Positions 9,666-58,992 of a stretch of DNA of 64,000 nucleotides are shown piece after piece. Under the pieces are notes generated by a model. The model made no database searches and was not told the DNA's origin. It saw only the letters and a program-made list of their open reading frames with translations. Origin of the DNA: Winogradskyella sp. MH6 (lineage in GTDB: Bacteria; Bacteroidota; Bacteroidia; Flavobacteriales; Flavobacteriaceae); contig NZ_CP094494.1 of the NCBI RefSeq assembly GCF_022810765.1, positions 124,001 through 188,000 on the forward strand, given 5' to 3'. The stretch's first letter is position 1. Each line of letters starts with the position of its first letter. Position numbers and translations under genes: made by a program.

Positions 9666-9780
9666 GCTTAACGTGTTCGTGTATAGTATGTGCCTGCTCG
9701 GTTACAGATTAGTTACACGAAAATTTATTAAACTAAATTGTGTATGCATACTGACATGCATTATACATGTTGTTGTAACC
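9666..9780 (-). repeat. attC-like imperfect hairpin, 115 bases
   Basis: Read in the direction of the adjoining gene, the element begins GGTTACAAC (9780-9772), runs through an arm with ATGTATAATGCATG, a central spacer, and a second arm GCACATACTATACACG, and ends at GTTAAGC (9672-9666), which matches the integron core GTTRRRY. Nine of 14 central arm bases pair exactly. Four of the five mismatches become G-T pairs if the strand opposite to the gene folds, as in attC sites. It starts 7 bases after the stop of the PIN-like gene. Confidence 0.6.
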
Positions 9781-9787
9781 TATGCTA

Positions 9788-11203
9788 CTAATCAAATGAG
9801 ATTAACAAACTAAATTCTTTTGATCCTTGATTGTTCTCAATTTTAAAATTTACATCCTCAAAATTCCATTCCCTACCAATCCATTTGTCTGATCTCATCA
9901 ATTCTAATTCCTTTTCCCAATCAAATTTTCCTTTGAAGTTAATGTCATCTCCAAATATCCTAAAGGCATTATTGATAACCAATTCATATTCTCGGTAAAA
10001 TTTAAAATATGAATAATTATAAGTTACTCTGTAGAAGTATAAATATTGCTTACCATCCTCTATTATTTTGTCAATACGGTTAAAAAAACCTAGATAAGTA
10101 TGAACGGGTTTAATCGTTTCTGTTTTTCTATCTCTGTCAAGTGATTGATGTGAATTGATTATTAAGCTATTGTTTAAATCGTTTTTTAATAATTGAATAA
10201 AAGTTGATACATCAGACGCCTCTTTTTCAACTATAAAGTCAAAAGAATTAATGAACTCATCTATATGAAGAACTTTTGTCTCTATACCTAGCAGTCTATA
10301 TAGTGCTCTAGTCTTCTTTAAAAAAGCTAAATCTTCTGAAACGACGCAATCAGTATAGGCACCATAATAACTATGTAGAGCATCATTCATCATGTTATTG
10401 AATTTGAACTTCTTAGATGGTTCTTTACTAATCCCTAGCAGGTCTAACGTACAATAAGCATTTACAAAAAAATCATATTTGGTTACTTCTGTGGTTCCAT
10501 TAGGATTCAAATTATCATTTACGAATTGTGTAAAAGTTTTTTTTAGTTCGGAATTTTCCAGCTCATCATTAAAGTCTATTTCGTCATAATTGATTGTAAA
10601 TTTTCCATTATTGAAATGTGTGTCCGTAATGTTTCTTAATCCTTTCCAAACTTTATTGTCATCTTTCATTTTTGTAACTAAGGACATCATATGTTCACTC
10701 CAATCTATCATGGACATAGGATCTTTACCAAATGGCAGTATTTTACTAACTGTATCTAAGACTTCAGAATCAGCGTCTATCAATCCTGAGAAATTAAAAT
10801 CTAAAATTGGCTCAGTCAAGAGCTTTTTGGCTTTTTCTACTTTTTGTTTGTCCTCATCATTTAAGTCAGTTGTATCAAATTCTAAAAGGCTTGCAAAATC
10901 AATATTGTCATCTTCATGTTCTACATCTTTAAATGCCATGTTGGGAGTTGCTAAGTAGCAGGATGTTCTTTTTTCAATAGCGTGATAAGACAAGTAATTA
11001 TCACCAACTATAGATTCGATAAAATCTAATTCAGAATATTTTATGTCTGTTTTATCGCTTTTTAAATCAAGTAAATGTGCGTGCGAGAAAACAAATAAAC
11101 TTGAACGCTGATTTCTGATTTTATCTAATAGTTTGACATACTTTGTTTTATCCTTTTTAAAAAGGTTACTAAAGATTTGTTTATCAAAGTAAATTCTTAC
11201 CAT
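9788..11203 (-). CDS. orphan protein with split PIN-like domain
   Basis: A 471-residue protein with no close family recognised. The N-terminus, MVRIYFDKQIF, puts Asp7 at the end of a first beta strand, followed by SLFVFSHAHLLDL. Near 274-302 there is a segment with ND, HSYYGAYTDCVVSEDLAFL and KKTRALYRLLGIETKV, very like the second half of PIN nuclease domains (HxxYxxxxDxxVSxDxxxxKK). The region between is an acidic, mostly helical insert of about 200 residues, and the C-terminal 150 residues are of unknown type. PIN domains are metal-dependent RNases or structure-specific nucleases. The gene is the only cargo of the cassette-like unit, so a toxin- or defence-type role is possible but unproven. 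Confidence 0.7.
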   Translation of the reverse strand: MVRIYFDKQIFSNLFKKDKTKYVKLLDKIRNQRSSLFVFSHAHLLDLKSDKTDIKYSELDFIESIVGDNYLSYHAIEKRTSCYLATPNMAFKDVEHEDDNIDFASLLEFDTTDLNDEDKQKVEKAKKLLTEPILDFNFSGLIDADSEVLDTVSKILPFGKDPMSMIDWSEHMMSLVTKMKDDNKVWKGLRNITDTHFNNGKFTINYDEIDFNDELENSELKKTFTQFVNDNLNPNGTTEVTKYDFFVNAYCTLDLLGISKEPSKKFKFNNMMNDALHSYYGAYTDCVVSEDLAFLKKTRALYRLLGIETKVLHIDEFINSFDFIVEKEASDVSTFIQLLKNDLNNSLIINSHQSLDRDRKTETIKPVHTYLGFFNRIDKIIEDGKQYLYFYRVTYNYSYFKFYREYELVINNAFRIFGDDINFKGKFDWEKELELMRSDKWIGREWNFEDVNFKIENNQGSKEFSLLISFD

Positions 11204-11272
11204 ATTGCGGATAAGGTGGCATTGGCTACAACATTTAGATAAGTTCAGTTTTAATTGAATTTATCGAACGAT

Positions 11273-55605: not shown

Positions 55606-56382
55606 TTATCCCAATTTATTATTAAACTGACGTAACTTAATTGCGGTTAACACTTTTTTAGTATACAAAGGAAAATCTGCATTTAACAACCAACCAAAAT
55701 AACCTGGCTCTTGCTCCATAACATCAACAACACGCTTACCTTTGTGCTTACCAAAAGAAAAACATTCTTTCCCTTCTTTGTTGAAAATTAAAAACCCTGC
55801 AAAATCTGCAAACTTTTTGCGCGAACTAAATTCCGCTAAAAATTTAGTGTCATTTTCTAGCTCCTCGTAGCGCTCTAATTGAGCTTTTAAAACCTCGTAA
55901 GTTGCTTTAGTATCAGCTTCAGCACTATGTGCATCGTCTAAACTTTTATCGCAATAAAACTTATAAGCTGCGCTTAGCGTACGTTGCTCCATTTTATGAA
56001 AAATAGTCTGAACATCTACTGCCAAACGGTTTTTCATATCAAAGTCTACCTCAGCACGTAACATTTCTTCTGCTAAAAGCGGAATATCAAATCGGTTAGA
56101 ATTAAATCCACCTAAATCTGAATCTTTTATAAAGTTATGTACTTCTTTAGAAATTTCTTTAAAGGTTGGTGCGTCTGCAACATCTGCATCTGAAATTCCA
56201 TGAACTTTAGTCACTTCTGCCGGAATAGGAATTGTTGGATTTACCAATTTTGTATAGGTTTCCTCCTTTCCGTTAGGATGAACTTTTAATATTGAAATTT
56301 CTACAATTCTGTCATTTGAGATATTGATTCCTGTAGTTTCTAAATCGAAAAAACAGATAGGCTTGTTTAGGTTGAGTTGCAT
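55606..56382 (-). CDS. DnaQ-like 3'-5' exonuclease with C-terminal DUF3820-type segment
   Basis: From ATG 56382 the protein has 258 residues; an upstream start at 56463 adds residues not typical of the family. The DEDDh exonuclease motifs are in order: FFDLETTG with Asp13 and Glu15, GFNSNRFDIPLL, and HSAEADTKATYE. The C-terminal 60 residues (FSFGKHKGKRVVDV, PGYFGWLLNADFP) resemble DUF3820, the same domain as the stand-alone gene at 21270. It probably degrades DNA or RNA 3' ends in repair or turnover. It is the first gene of the minus-strand run down to cinA. Confidence 0.92.
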   Translation of the reverse strand: MQLNLNKPICFFDLETTGINISNDRIVEISILKVHPNGKEETYTKLVNPTIPIPAEVTKVHGISDADVADAPTFKEISKEVHNFIKDSDLGGFNSNRFDIPLLAEEMLRAEVDFDMKNRLAVDVQTIFHKMEQRTLSAAYKFYCDKSLDDAHSAEADTKATYEVLKAQLERYEELENDTKFLAEFSSRKKFADFAGFLIFNKEGKECFSFGKHKGKRVVDVMEQEPGYFGWLLNADFPLYTKKVLTAIKLRQFNNKLG

Positions 56383-56572
56383 ATTAAAATTTTGAAAACC
56401 AAAGATAAATAGAATTAGCTGAATAGCATTGTTTGTATTGAAAAAGCTAACCTCGTTTAACACTTAAAAAAACATTGAAAAGATTTGTTATCTTAGTCGT
56501 TATAGTAAAGATATAGATAATATCTATATTCAATTGTTATGTGCAATAGGTATAAAACGACCAAATTTTAAA

Positions 56573-57331
56573 ATGAAAAAGAAAAAAAAGTATTTGATAT
56601 TTGGATTTATCATCATAAACCTAATTCTCATCCCGTGGATTGTTTTTCATAATGAATGTGATTTTGAGAAAATTATTAAATACACAAAAGAACTAGCCAT
56701 TTTTGAGTTTTCAACTATTTCATTAATTATTGCAATTAGTCTATTTGATAAATTTGGTATTAATAAAAAACTGACAGAGAAAAGAACCGAACTAGTTTTA
56801 GAATTAATAGCTGAATTAAAAGCTCAGGAAGGTTTTGGAACGAATATTTTTGAAAGTGGAAATTTTATCACAAATCCTCCTTTTTACTTTGGAATTAATA
56901 TGTTAGAAAAAGCGTCTAAGATGTTTAAGCATATGCAGAACGAAAGAAATCAATCATATTTAGATGCACCAATAAATATCAATAGCCAAGATTTTGATGA
57001 AGCGTTTAAAAAAGTTCGAAAGCTTTTAAATAACCCAATAATGCCTAAAAGCATAGTTCAAAAAAGTAGTTTTTTAAAATTATCTGGAGGTCATAACAAT
57101 AAAGAATTAAGAGCAAGAAAAATAATTGTTTTCGTATACTTCACCTCAAAAGCAAAAAAAGAATTAATTGCAAATAATGGGAATACTTGGGTGGTTTCTT
57201 CAAATAACGACTGTACTTTAAGAGAATTTTTGGTAAAATTTGAAAACATCTTTAAAGAATGTCAGCAATGGACTGATAATCATTCTGATATAAGTGAAGA
57301 ATTAAATTTTCAGAATTTTGACTTGAATTAA
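56573..57331 (+). CDS. orphan two-TM protein of unknown function
   Basis: From ATG 56573 the protein has 252 residues. Residues about 7-24 (LIFGFIIINLILIPWIVF) and about 40-58 (IFEFSTISLIIAISLFD) are hydrophobic. The rest is a cytoplasmic-looking, Lys- and Asn-rich domain with FGINMLEKASKMFKHMQ, ARKIIVFVYFTSKAKKEL and a C-terminal FENIFKECQQW. No family was recognised. A start codon at 56534 lies in the cassette core and is not favoured. It is the sole cargo of the cassette-like unit; a stress or defence role is only a guess. Confidence 0.75.
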   Translation: MKKKKKYLIFGFIIINLILIPWIVFHNECDFEKIIKYTKELAIFEFSTISLIIAISLFDKFGINKKLTEKRTELVLELIAELKAQEGFGTNIFESGNFITNPPFYFGINMLEKASKMFKHMQNERNQSYLDAPININSQDFDEAFKKVRKLLNNPIMPKSIVQKSSFLKLSGGHNNKELRARKIIVFVYFTSKAKKELIANNGNTWVVSSNNDCTLREFLVKFENIFKECQQWTDNHSDISEELNFQNFDLN

Positions 57332-57335
57332 TAAA

Positions 57336-57534
57336 GCACATAACACGGTGTATAAAACATAGCTAATAAGTGTTTAACCGAAAGGTTTGTGCTTGTTTAC
57401 GAAGACCGCCAAATTTTTAATTTGGCTTTTAAAAAGAGAAAAATTAAAAACAAAATATAAAAATTCGGCTCTGTGTTAATCCGAAAAGTTAGTGTCTTTT
57501 TACACGCTACGTTTCATACACTAGACCGTTAAAC
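57336..57534 (+). repeat. attC-like imperfect hairpin, 199 bases
   Basis: Outer arms GTGTATAAAACATAGC (57348-57363) and GCTACGTTTCATACAC (57506-57521) pair at 14 of 16 positions. Both mismatches are A opposite C on the top strand, and become T-G pairs on the bottom strand. Inner hairpins AACCGAAAGGTT (57376-57387) and GCCAAATTTTTAATTTGGC (57408-57426) add structure. The element is longer than usual attC sites. The rest of this non-coding stretch (57535-57651) holds a terminator and a type B palindrome. Confidence 0.6.
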
Positions 57535-57550
57535 GAACTTCAAAAAAACA

Positions 57551-57593: not shown

Positions 57594-57638
57594 ATGCTGA
57601 ATCAACACTTCGACACGCTCAGTGTGACAGTTCAGCAT
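57594..57638. repeat. type B palindrome interrupted by a nested hairpin
   Basis: ATGCTGAA (57594-57601) and TTCAGCAT (57631-57638) are type B arms. Instead of a five-base loop they enclose 29 bases with ACACTTCGACACGCTCAGTG, whose CACT and AGTG can pair. Confidence 0.75.
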
Positions 57639-57651
57639 GACAAGGCATTAA

Positions 57652-58992
57652 TTAAATTTCCCTATTAGAATCCCAAGCTTCAAGATAATCTTTTACAGCT
57701 TTTACAAACTGTCCACCTAAAGCTCCATTGACCACTCTATGGTCATATGAGTGAGACATAAACATTTTGTATCTAATACCTATAAAGTCACCTTGAGGAG
57801 TTTCTATAACTGCTGGCACTTTTCTTATAGCACCCAATGCTAAAATACCCACTTGTGGTTGATTGATGATTGGCGTACCCATAATGCTACCAAATGTACC
57901 AACATTAGTTACAGTATAAGTACCACCTTGTATGTCGTCTGGACTCAATTTATTTTCTCTTGCTCTATTGGCTAAATCATTAACCTTTTTAGCCATACCT
58001 AATAAATTAAGCTGGTCTGCATCTTTTATAACAGGTACAATTAAGTTACCATCTGGTAAAGCTGCTGCCATACCTAAGTTGATGTGTTTCTTCTTTATAA
58101 TACTATCTCCCTGTACTGAGATATTCATCATTGGAAAATCGCGCAAAGCTTTTGCAACCGCCTCCATAAATATAGGAGTAAAGGTTAGATTTTCTCCTTC
58201 ACGATTTTTGAAACTGTTTTTATGCTTGTTTCTCCAGTTCCAGATTTCGGTTACATCTGCCTCAATAAATGACTGTACATGAGCAGAAGTCTGCACAGAC
58301 TCAACCATGTGCTTAGAAATGAGTTTACCCATTCTGGTCATTTCTATAATCTCATCTTCACCTGAAGCAACTACTGGTGTAGAAGCTGGTTTTTCTTTTG
58401 GTTGATTTGATGCAACTGCCTTAGTTTCTACTTTTTGCTCCACAACTGGCTGAGATTTTACTTCCTCAACTGGTGCTGAACTGCGTGACTGCAAGTAAGA
58501 TTTAATATCGTTTTTAGTAACACGACCATCTTTTCCTGTTCCTGCTATAGCATCTAATTCTGCTTGAGAAATTCCTTCTTGTTTAGCAATGTTTTTAACT
58601 AAAGGAGAATAAAAACGATCACCAGAAGAAACTACAGGCTCAGCTGCTGCTTTTGCTGCCACAACGGTTTGCGCTACTTCTGCTACAGCTTTAGGAGCTT
58701 CCTCTTTTTTAGATTCAGTTGCTGGTGCTTTTACCTCAACCGTATCACCTCCTTCGGTTTCTATTACTGCAATGGTTTGACCTACTTGTACGACATCATC
58801 AACATCAAAAAGCTTTTCTACCAACACACCATCAACCTCACTTGGTACTTCACTATCTACCTTATCTGTTGCTATTTCTAAAACAGCTTCATCAGCTTCA
58901 ATAGTGTCGCCAACGTCTTTTAACCAAGACGTTATAGTTGCTTCTGCAACACTCTCTCCCATTTTAGGTAACTTAAGTTCAAACTTTGCCAT
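57652..58992 (-). CDS. 2-oxo acid dehydrogenase E2 (dihydrolipoamide acyltransferase)
   Basis: A 446-residue E2 enzyme. One lipoyl domain at about 3-76 with Lys44 in ATDKVDSEVP; an E3-binding domain at about 129-168 (YSPLVKNIAKQEGIS, GTGKDGRVTKNDI); and the catalytic core, with HSYDHRVVNGALGG holding DHR at 417-419. The enzyme transfers acyl groups to CoA in the pyruvate, branched-chain or 2-oxoglutarate complex. The linker rich in Ala and Val and the single lipoyl domain fit the branched-chain type. E1 and E3 genes are not adjacent. Confidence 0.94.
   Translation of the reverse strand: MAKFELKLPKMGESVAEATITSWLKDVGDTIEADEAVLEIATDKVDSEVPSEVDGVLVEKLFDVDDVVQVGQTIAVIETEGGDTVEVKAPATESKKEEAPKAVAEVAQTVVAAKAAAEPVVSSGDRFYSPLVKNIAKQEGISQAELDAIAGTGKDGRVTKNDIKSYLQSRSSAPVEEVKSQPVVEQKVETKAVASNQPKEKPASTPVVASGEDEIIEMTRMGKLISKHMVESVQTSAHVQSFIEADVTEIWNWRNKHKNSFKNREGENLTFTPIFMEAVAKALRDFPMMNISVQGDSIIKKKHINLGMAAALPDGNLIVPVIKDADQLNLLGMAKKVNDLANRARENKLSPDDIQGGTYTVTNVGTFGSIMGTPIINQPQVGILALGAIRKVPAVIETPQGDFIGIRYKMFMSHSYDHRVVNGALGGQFVKAVKDYLEAWDSNREI

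Follow-up and report, generated by a model that had tools for sequence, protein, structure and literature searches.

A solitary gene cassette in Winogradskyella sp. MH6, very probably part of an integron-type gene-capture system of Bacteroidota

The 64-kb stretch of Winogradskyella sp. MH6 DNA analysed here, called the window throughout (MH6 is genome G000; other G numbers denote relatives, L numbers loci), contains a unit made up of one open reading frame (ORF) and a long imperfect hairpin, lodged between a 3'-5' exonuclease gene and an odhB-like gene. An earlier note on this DNA took the unit for one integron-like cassette that carries an attC-type site and was inserted singly among housekeeping genes, and comparison with the arrays of relatives bears this out. 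The layout it described is also as stated: the 9-mer GTTATGTGC at 56536-56544 recurs as its exact reverse complement GCACATAAC at 57336-57344, the ATG of the ORF (56573) lies 28 bases after the first copy, and the stop ends (57331) 4 bases before the second. Taken by itself, this 9-mer pair is compatible with chance, since 11 out of 100 shuffled versions of the window contain at least two copies, and the pair alone is not used as proof. The raw 199-base hairpin is only mildly stable against shuffles, with z -1.49 on the top strand and z -2.33 on the bottom strand. The element becomes certain because the same element forms long arrays in relatives, where complementarity between the start of a unit and its R'' box is general.

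A plain DNA search finds the window element once in full in its own genome; the reading as a single-copy element that this gave was overturned by profile searches. A match at E <= 1e-3 is present in 38 of the 60 genomes searched, MH6 included; some of these are short AT-rich pieces, most strong ones end at the same G-TT, and several genomes carry the element in series. An iterated profile, built on array stretches from 11 genomes of the genus (MH6 among them), marks 324 sites in 16 regions, weak matches up to E 1 being used for the ends. Cutting between successive G/TT gave 248 units; removal of one with a truncated neighbour and of 16 exact duplicates left 231 unique, complete cassettes of 425 to 4829 bp (median 892), a set limited to units of 150-5000 bp. 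In G027, 96 sites extend over 102 kb at one contig end and nine over 8 kb at the other, with the strong profile matches of the array on one strand; if the contig is circular, this is an array of 105 sites (L050-L056) that spans about 116 kb, some 3.5 percent of the genome. An Rfam search of three array stretches gave a single match, below threshold, to Flavo-1 RNA; it lies within the G027 array (L050:2891-2961, minus strand) and scores 34.5 of 42 bits. In MH6 itself, an array lies about 256 kb from the window cassette, directly behind a recombinase gene and an attI site; its other sites beyond the array are scattered, single or in small groups.

An integron cassette is a circle, so a unit's start should pair with the R'' box of the same unit rather than with a neighbour's. 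Across the 231 cassettes, the six variable bases that come after GTT agree with this R'' at 1349 of 1386 positions, and the agreement is exact in 214 of 231; shuffled pairing gives 522 +/- 21 positions and 4.3 exact matches, and the start of the next unit, used as a control, gives four. As 91 different six-base words occur at the unit starts, it is the matching of start and R'', not a fixed sequence, that is maintained. Such a match is the signature of a circular cassette, and the complementarity that the earlier note explained by the circular form is general in relatives. An ORF of 60 amino acids or more is present in 219 of the 231 units, on the attC strand in 211 of the 219. Where an ORF of 80 amino acids or more lies on the site strand, the start codon is found at a median of 31 bases into the unit and the stop ends a median of 12 bases before the AAC of R''; the corresponding distances in the window cassette are 36 and 10 bases.

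The sites fall into two length classes, 189 short and 42 long (AAC to G, medians about 123 and 186-190 bases), the window site being long. Both classes share one architecture, in which 3 bases separate R'' from L'', a variable middle separates L'' from L', and 5 or 6 bases separate L' from G/TT. Spacers of 3 and 6 bases are present in 200 of 231 sites. Pairing along the L stem survives changes on both sides (at position 2, GC 108, AT 72, CG 36, TA 10 of 230). Mismatches in this stem are one-sided: A.C or C.A on the top strand occurs at positions 6, 7, 10 and 11 in 218, 85, 36 and 190 of 230 sites, and the reverse type (G.T on top) 0 or 1 times there (0 at position 6, 1 at position 11). Each top-strand A.C is a T.G pair on the bottom strand. 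One R-stem position reads C.A in 202 of the 231 sites. Circular-form folds are more stable on the bottom strand in 227 of 231 cassettes (mean -28.5 vs -24.3 kcal/mol), the window cassette giving -31.3 against -26.9 kcal/mol. These counts are not independent events, as related sequences share ancestry; all point one way. Classical attC sites choose their strand by extrahelical bases, according to the portion of PMC2727003 drawn on here. Unlike these, the window-type sites run without extrahelical bases through L-stem positions 0-15, the 16 covered (gapless register), keep the conserved A.C on top and T.G on the bottom, and come in two length classes.

Set against this framework, the parts of the window cassette can be assigned (Table 1). 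A profile of the attC-like element matches at 57342-57530 (E 1.7e-43, 1-kb search), and similarity of the locus to three relatives picks up again at 57521-57525. The hairpin that the earlier note saw ending at GTTAAAC is thus retained, with its end moved: the unit closes at G57528, and AAAC belongs to the flank.

Table 1. Features of the locus, the cassette and the related elements in the MH6 genome (window coordinates unless a contig is given)
Feature	Position	Strand	Remarks
3'-5' exonuclease (RNase_T family), flanking gene	55606..56382	-	
attI-like docking site	56478..56536	+	opens with AAAAGATTTGTTATCTTAG, terminal codons of the recombinase gene (KDLLS stop)
Mobile unit, one gene cassette, TTATGTGC ... 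G	56537..57528	+	992 bp; ends set against 231 delimited cassettes
Cassette gene, 252 amino acids	56573..57331	+	two hydrophobic segments in the N-terminal part, at about residues 7-25 and 41-59
R'' box GCACATAAC	57336..57344	+	pairs with G56536 + TTATGTGC; match exact
L'' arm GTGTATAAAACATAGC	57348..57363	+	3-nt spacer from R''; register of 231 relatives, placed by eye
Terminal part of hairpin, long variant, 142 bases	57364..57505	+	alignment plus bottom-strand fold
L' arm GCTACGTTTCATACAC	57506..57521	+	stem register of 231 relatives, placed by eye
6-nt spacer TAGACC and G of crossover G/TT	57522..57528	+	comparison with delimited cassettes, stem register
Right junction TTAAACGAACTTC, host side	57529..57541	+	common to G001 (L114); with changes in G027 (L113) and G036 (L116)
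2-oxo acid dehydrogenase E2 component, odhB-like, flanking gene	57652..58992	-	named by eye from translation
Second solitary cassette TTGTAGCC ... CG/TT	9672..11231	-	471-amino-acid ORF 9788-11203; start/R'' 5/6
Tyrosine recombinase of the same genome, 375 amino acids	G000:C1:436144-437271		attI and array directly behind (L082/L100)

The sequence to the left of the cassette resembles a docking site. Following the last recombinase codons is an imperfect palindrome, GATATAG..CTATATTC, and then CAATTG, with the crossover after G56536. By blastn, 56478-56539 aligns at 81.5% over 65 columns to the 3' end of the MH6 recombinase gene and the sequence beyond it; the site was compared by eye with the attI of L082, L081 and L086. 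The attI pattern (56510-56536) occurs at four distinct places in the genome, and its reversed control at none: the recombinase's own attI; that of the window; one followed by a cassette (start/R'' 5/6); and one with no site. The last of these (L238, G000:C1:2350894, minus strand) has a cassette-like start, TTGTGAGTAAT, but no attC by profile. The absence of an integrase that the earlier note reported therefore holds at the window locus only, as a matching recombinase and array lie elsewhere in the genome. The earlier note also missed that the window holds a second solitary cassette, that the genome has an array, and that the left flank is an attI copy.

Relatives were compared at the same locus. 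For the exonuclease-odhB locus, 67 of the 68 genomes searched gave a match; 30 loci were compared, with odhB within reach in 17. These 17 comprise four with a cassette (the window's own, G027, G001 and a decayed one in G036), five with a short gap and eight with other genes. The window and G027 were marked by a strict script, while G001 and G036 (L116, decayed) were judged by eye; the script's marks at L122 and L132 are attributed to chance, as no site follows. A cassette is thus present in three of the 16 other readable species, and the cassette genes are all unrelated, the four inserted genes having no mutual match by blastp or blastn at E 1e-3. The right flank is common to all four. The left flank is common to G027, G001 and G036 (88 to 173 bases at 90-100%) and differs in the window because the attI copy sits there. 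Left of the cassette in L113 and L114 is an attI-like palindrome with a longer middle, and a repeat there resembles, by eye, one near window position 57610. The earlier note had suggested looking for the empty site in relatives: the same flanks do occur there with other cassettes, other genes or nothing, but the exact empty allele (the window attI without its cassette) was not found among the 17 readable loci.

The recombinase beside the MH6 array defines a platform: recombinase gene, adjoining attI, then array. At 25 loci with group-A recombinases, attI directly follows the 3' end of the gene in 13 by strict script and in 23 by eye, the latter count leaving out L162 and also L163, whose contig ends 2 bases after the stop. 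Sites are found by profile at 14 of the 25 in the stretch examined. The contig ends within 2 kb after the gene at 12 of the 25 loci, and within 2 kb before it at none. Among the 11 loci with no profile site, the sequence available beyond the gene is less than 0.9 kb at eight, 1.3 kb at L156, and about 10 kb at L158 and L165.

Judged by the defining domain, the array-adjacent recombinases are not integron integrases. All seven scanned fall below the TIGR02249 cut-off of 265 (192.1-218.8 bits) and match the model in two stretches, although for L055 it is still the best model (192.4 vs 190.7 for NF040815). IntI is defined by an additional domain, I2, near patch III, in those parts of PMC9668308 and PMC4792948 that were available. 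The MH6 protein shares the tyrosine recombinase fold with IntI4 (PDB 2a3v), its residues 115-280 and 306-370 aligning at 14-180 and 249-313 only. Between the aligned parts, 68 IntI4 residues face 25 in the MH6 protein, which indicates that the IntI-specific insert is missing; unlike IntI4, the MH6 protein also has an extra N-terminal part of about 100 residues. The integron patch domain that the earlier note would have searched for is therefore lacking in these recombinases, and its suggestion of an unusual class is upheld. On these alignments, the system is integron-like in its working and not an integron by its integrase. The best family by score is the XerA type, NF040815 (cut-off 220), reached by MH6 (245.5), L083 (229.3), L087 (233.7) and L088 (226); three of the six other array-linked recombinases score just below (L055 190.7, L099 198.8, L096 217.4). 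XerA-type proteins (PDB 5hxy, 4a8e) are also the best solved relatives by sequence and fold. They differ from the MH6 recombinase in that the latter has the N-terminal extra domain and adjoins attI and cassette arrays, in which its role would be that of the integrase.

The sites are widespread in the family. A covariance model built from 56 short sites, with hits counted at E <= 1e-4 and per-genome counts to be read as lower bounds, gives attC-like scores at the window cassette (58.3 bits, E 4.6e-11) and at many places in MH6 and relatives, contrary to the refuting outcome that the earlier note named. Sites are present in 220 of 249 family genomes (207 of 235 genera) and in 85 of 296 genomes of a phylum sample. 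Eleven named genomes were also scored, and in the seven that carry a group-A recombinase the count runs from 14 to 52. Saonia flava has 52 sites and Flagellimonas pacifica 26. The model finds no sites in Acinetobacter portensis, a Treponema metagenome-assembled genome (MAG) or a Chlorobiota MAG, and one in a Thermochlorobacteriaceae bacterium (E 6.8e-5). The recombinase query finds a match in 134 of the 249 family genomes. Sites accompany it in 131 of these 134, as against 89 of the 115 recombinase-negative genomes (Fisher p 4e-7, cross-table by hand), and all 43 genomes with a recombinase match below E 1e-99 carry sites. Among mobile elements, viral contigs contain no copy of the exact 27-base pattern searched for; plasmids give one partial match by DNA (Flammeovirga kamogawensis) and distant recombinase relatives by protein, including a shorter Acinetobacter recombinase; and phages have distant recombinases, 37.6% being the best among the matches listed.

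Cassettes also recur between genomes. Twelve pairs of the same cassette in different species are 74.7-97.9% identical, although these represent only four cassette genes, nine pairs coming from one gene. The first 60 bases of the unit that follows a shared cassette are only 27-52% identical.

Taken in aggregate, these comparisons establish the boundaries, the circular complementarity, the conserved hairpin, the bottom-strand bias, the arrays, the attI by the recombinase gene and the cassettes with varied neighbours, all as properties of sequence. They make it very probable that the window holds one cassette of a Bacteroidota integron-type gene-capture system whose most likely enzyme is the array-adjacent, XerA-like recombinase. 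The proposed reaction likely involves: a cassette in the form of a circle with one gene and one attC-like site; folding of its bottom strand to a hairpin, with R'' pairing with the cassette's own start; and joining of the circle at G/TT, by a tyrosine recombinase, to the attI palindrome or to the attC of another cassette, which would build the arrays. The substrate would be single strands. The enzyme catalysing this movement would most likely be the XerA-like protein with an extra N-terminal domain, beside attI and array, and that domain may read the hairpin. The window site would then be a second attI, occupied by a single cassette. It could have arisen from a platform by loss of the recombinase gene, or as a copy of attI into which the platform 256 kb away delivered a cassette in trans. 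The cassette may still be mobile.

Several points weigh against this reading. Recombination itself has not been observed, the case being one of sequence comparison; the window attI has no intact recombinase gene, and the window unit may be a fossil. No Rfam family reaches gathering score in the window. L158 and L165 have no profile site in about 10 kb after the gene, and neither do the partial group-A loci L167 and L168. The G027 recombinase shares about 40% identity with group A, and its gene is oriented away from the array; the same sites would then need to be used by recombinases of more than one family. The 89 recombinase-negative genomes with sites imply either that divergent recombinases act there or that many copies are orphans; the query threshold of E <= 1e-60 admits proteins 35-50% identical. 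Genomes with no attC are mostly small, and genome size thus confounds the association of recombinase and sites. The match of the N-terminal domain to branched-DNA-binding domains of the UvsW/XPB/HARP type is weak, and with scores this low HARP identity is not claimed; a family's absence from the lists of structural matches is not taken to exclude it.

That a recombinase-attI platform once stood at the window locus and left the present copy as a dead relic, in a system that is itself real, is compatible with the capture system proposed above and concerns this copy only. The last codons of the recombinase gene are all that remains of it there, the cassette that related G036 carries at this locus has decayed (L116, by eye), and L238 provides another attI-like site with no attC by profile. 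The window R'' and arms are intact, however, its circular form folds well on the bottom strand, and the cassette ORF is open; the other cassettes at the locus in three of 16 readable species would fit exchange at this place. On balance, a relic is a serious possibility that falls somewhat short of an even chance.

If the arrays were ordinary integrons, a classical IntI would lie elsewhere in these genomes or pass on plasmids, and the array-adjacent recombinase would be unrelated. The cassette logic is indeed that of classical attC (G/TT, R'/R'', L'/L'', bottom strand; relevant part of PMC2727003), and integrons are on record for the phylum Bacteroidota in the lists seen of PMC8618304 and PMC9668308. 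A complete Bacteroidetes integron is named with IntegronFinder 2.0 only for Salinibacter ruber M1, in the section consulted of PMC9024848. PMC9668308, in its accessible part, describes IntegronFinder as recognising integrases by PF00589 together with an IntI-specific profile, so that the array recombinases would probably be missed and their arrays at best called integrase-less. TIGR02249 is above cut-off in none of the 249 family genomes, a weak result in that none of 14 control genomes matched either; the search is therefore not used as proof that IntI is absent. Further objections come from the G027 genome, whose only PF00589 proteins are the array's own and two of XerC/D size, from the joining of attI to the 3' end of a non-IntI recombinase gene, and from the lack of an extrahelical base over the L-stem positions given above. 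An ordinary integron is thus very unlikely.

XerC/XerD are credited with moving pdif modules, and the housekeeping pair could likewise move these cassettes, with the neighbouring recombinase a passenger. G027 does have two Xer-sized recombinases (301 and 306 amino acids) besides the array-adjacent one, and recombinase-negative genomes still carry sites. Each unit, however, has one hairpin site and a complementary start, not two dif-like sites; the attI palindromes directly follow the recombinase gene itself; and the MH6 recombinase falls short of the cut-offs for XerC (203.5 of 335 bits) and XerD (208.2 of 329.6 bits), which leaves this route highly improbable. A transposon-like or miniature inverted-repeat transposable element (MITE)-like repeat between genes, with the gene no part of a mobile unit, would explain why the element is AT-rich and repeated in relatives, but it is almost certainly wrong and in the main refuted, since the repeat as a rule closes one gene unit, the start/R'' complementarity is unit-specific, and whole units recur in other species beside unlike neighbours.

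With the integron-type capture system as the preferred reading, its likenesses to known systems can be defined. Class 1 integrons and Vibrio superintegrons share with it one gene and one site per unit and the G/TT crossover, and their attC sites share the following: an R'' that can pair with the start of its own cassette across about nine bases; an L''/L' stem; an asymmetric unpaired spacer (3 by 6); the bottom-strand bias; and long arrays in one orientation. CALIN (clusters of attC sites that lack an integrase), in the portion of PMC7923331 available, likewise consist of solitary or clustered cassettes with no detected IntI. Here, unlike in CALIN as described there, the main arrays adjoin a recombinase of another kind, and an attI copy accompanies the window unit. 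A wider proposal, held tentatively and at just under even likelihood, is that Bacteroidota possess their own integron-type system, independent of IntI or predating the I2 insert: the N-terminal domain, like the branched-DNA binders UvsW, XPB and SMARCAL1, would read the folded bottom strand; the conserved T.G pairs would choose the strand; its sites would be those present in most Flavobacteriaceae; its gene pool would be large and mostly uncharacterised, with some anti-phage genes; and the attI at the window locus would be a secondary one, filled anew in trans by lone cassettes that vary between species. No description of such a system was found in the literature searched, preprints and most subscription journals lying outside that search. 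If the proposal is correct, a large bacterial family has gene-capture arrays that have so far been overlooked.

The product of the window cassette matches no Pfam or PADLOC family. Besides itself, it has nine homologues among about 5.8 billion proteins, including one in Tenacibaculum sp. SZ-18 that is 56% identical, and no copy of its gene was found in the other 67 genus genomes or the other 396 family genomes searched. A family scan covered 110 of 208 cassette proteins: 64 Pfam families are found at E <= 1e-4, none in more than two members. Some of the proteins are also matched by PADLOC models, 186 in number, with two members each among the matches listed (25). Some of the scanned proteins match defence or toxin-antitoxin families, and the families include AAA/AbiEii, GmrSD, ThsB-TIR, Schlafen and antidote families. 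From this company, our guess is that the window protein may be membrane-anchored and of a defence or toxin-immunity kind.

The second solitary cassette of the window has an attC-like match at 9670-9783 (36.2 bits, E 5.8e-6), and no attI-like sequence was seen ahead of it. More distant recombinases with a similar N-terminal motif and no array, many of about 455-570 amino acids, are found at L166-L206; by eye, several of them stand just before what we take to be an ssb-like gene.
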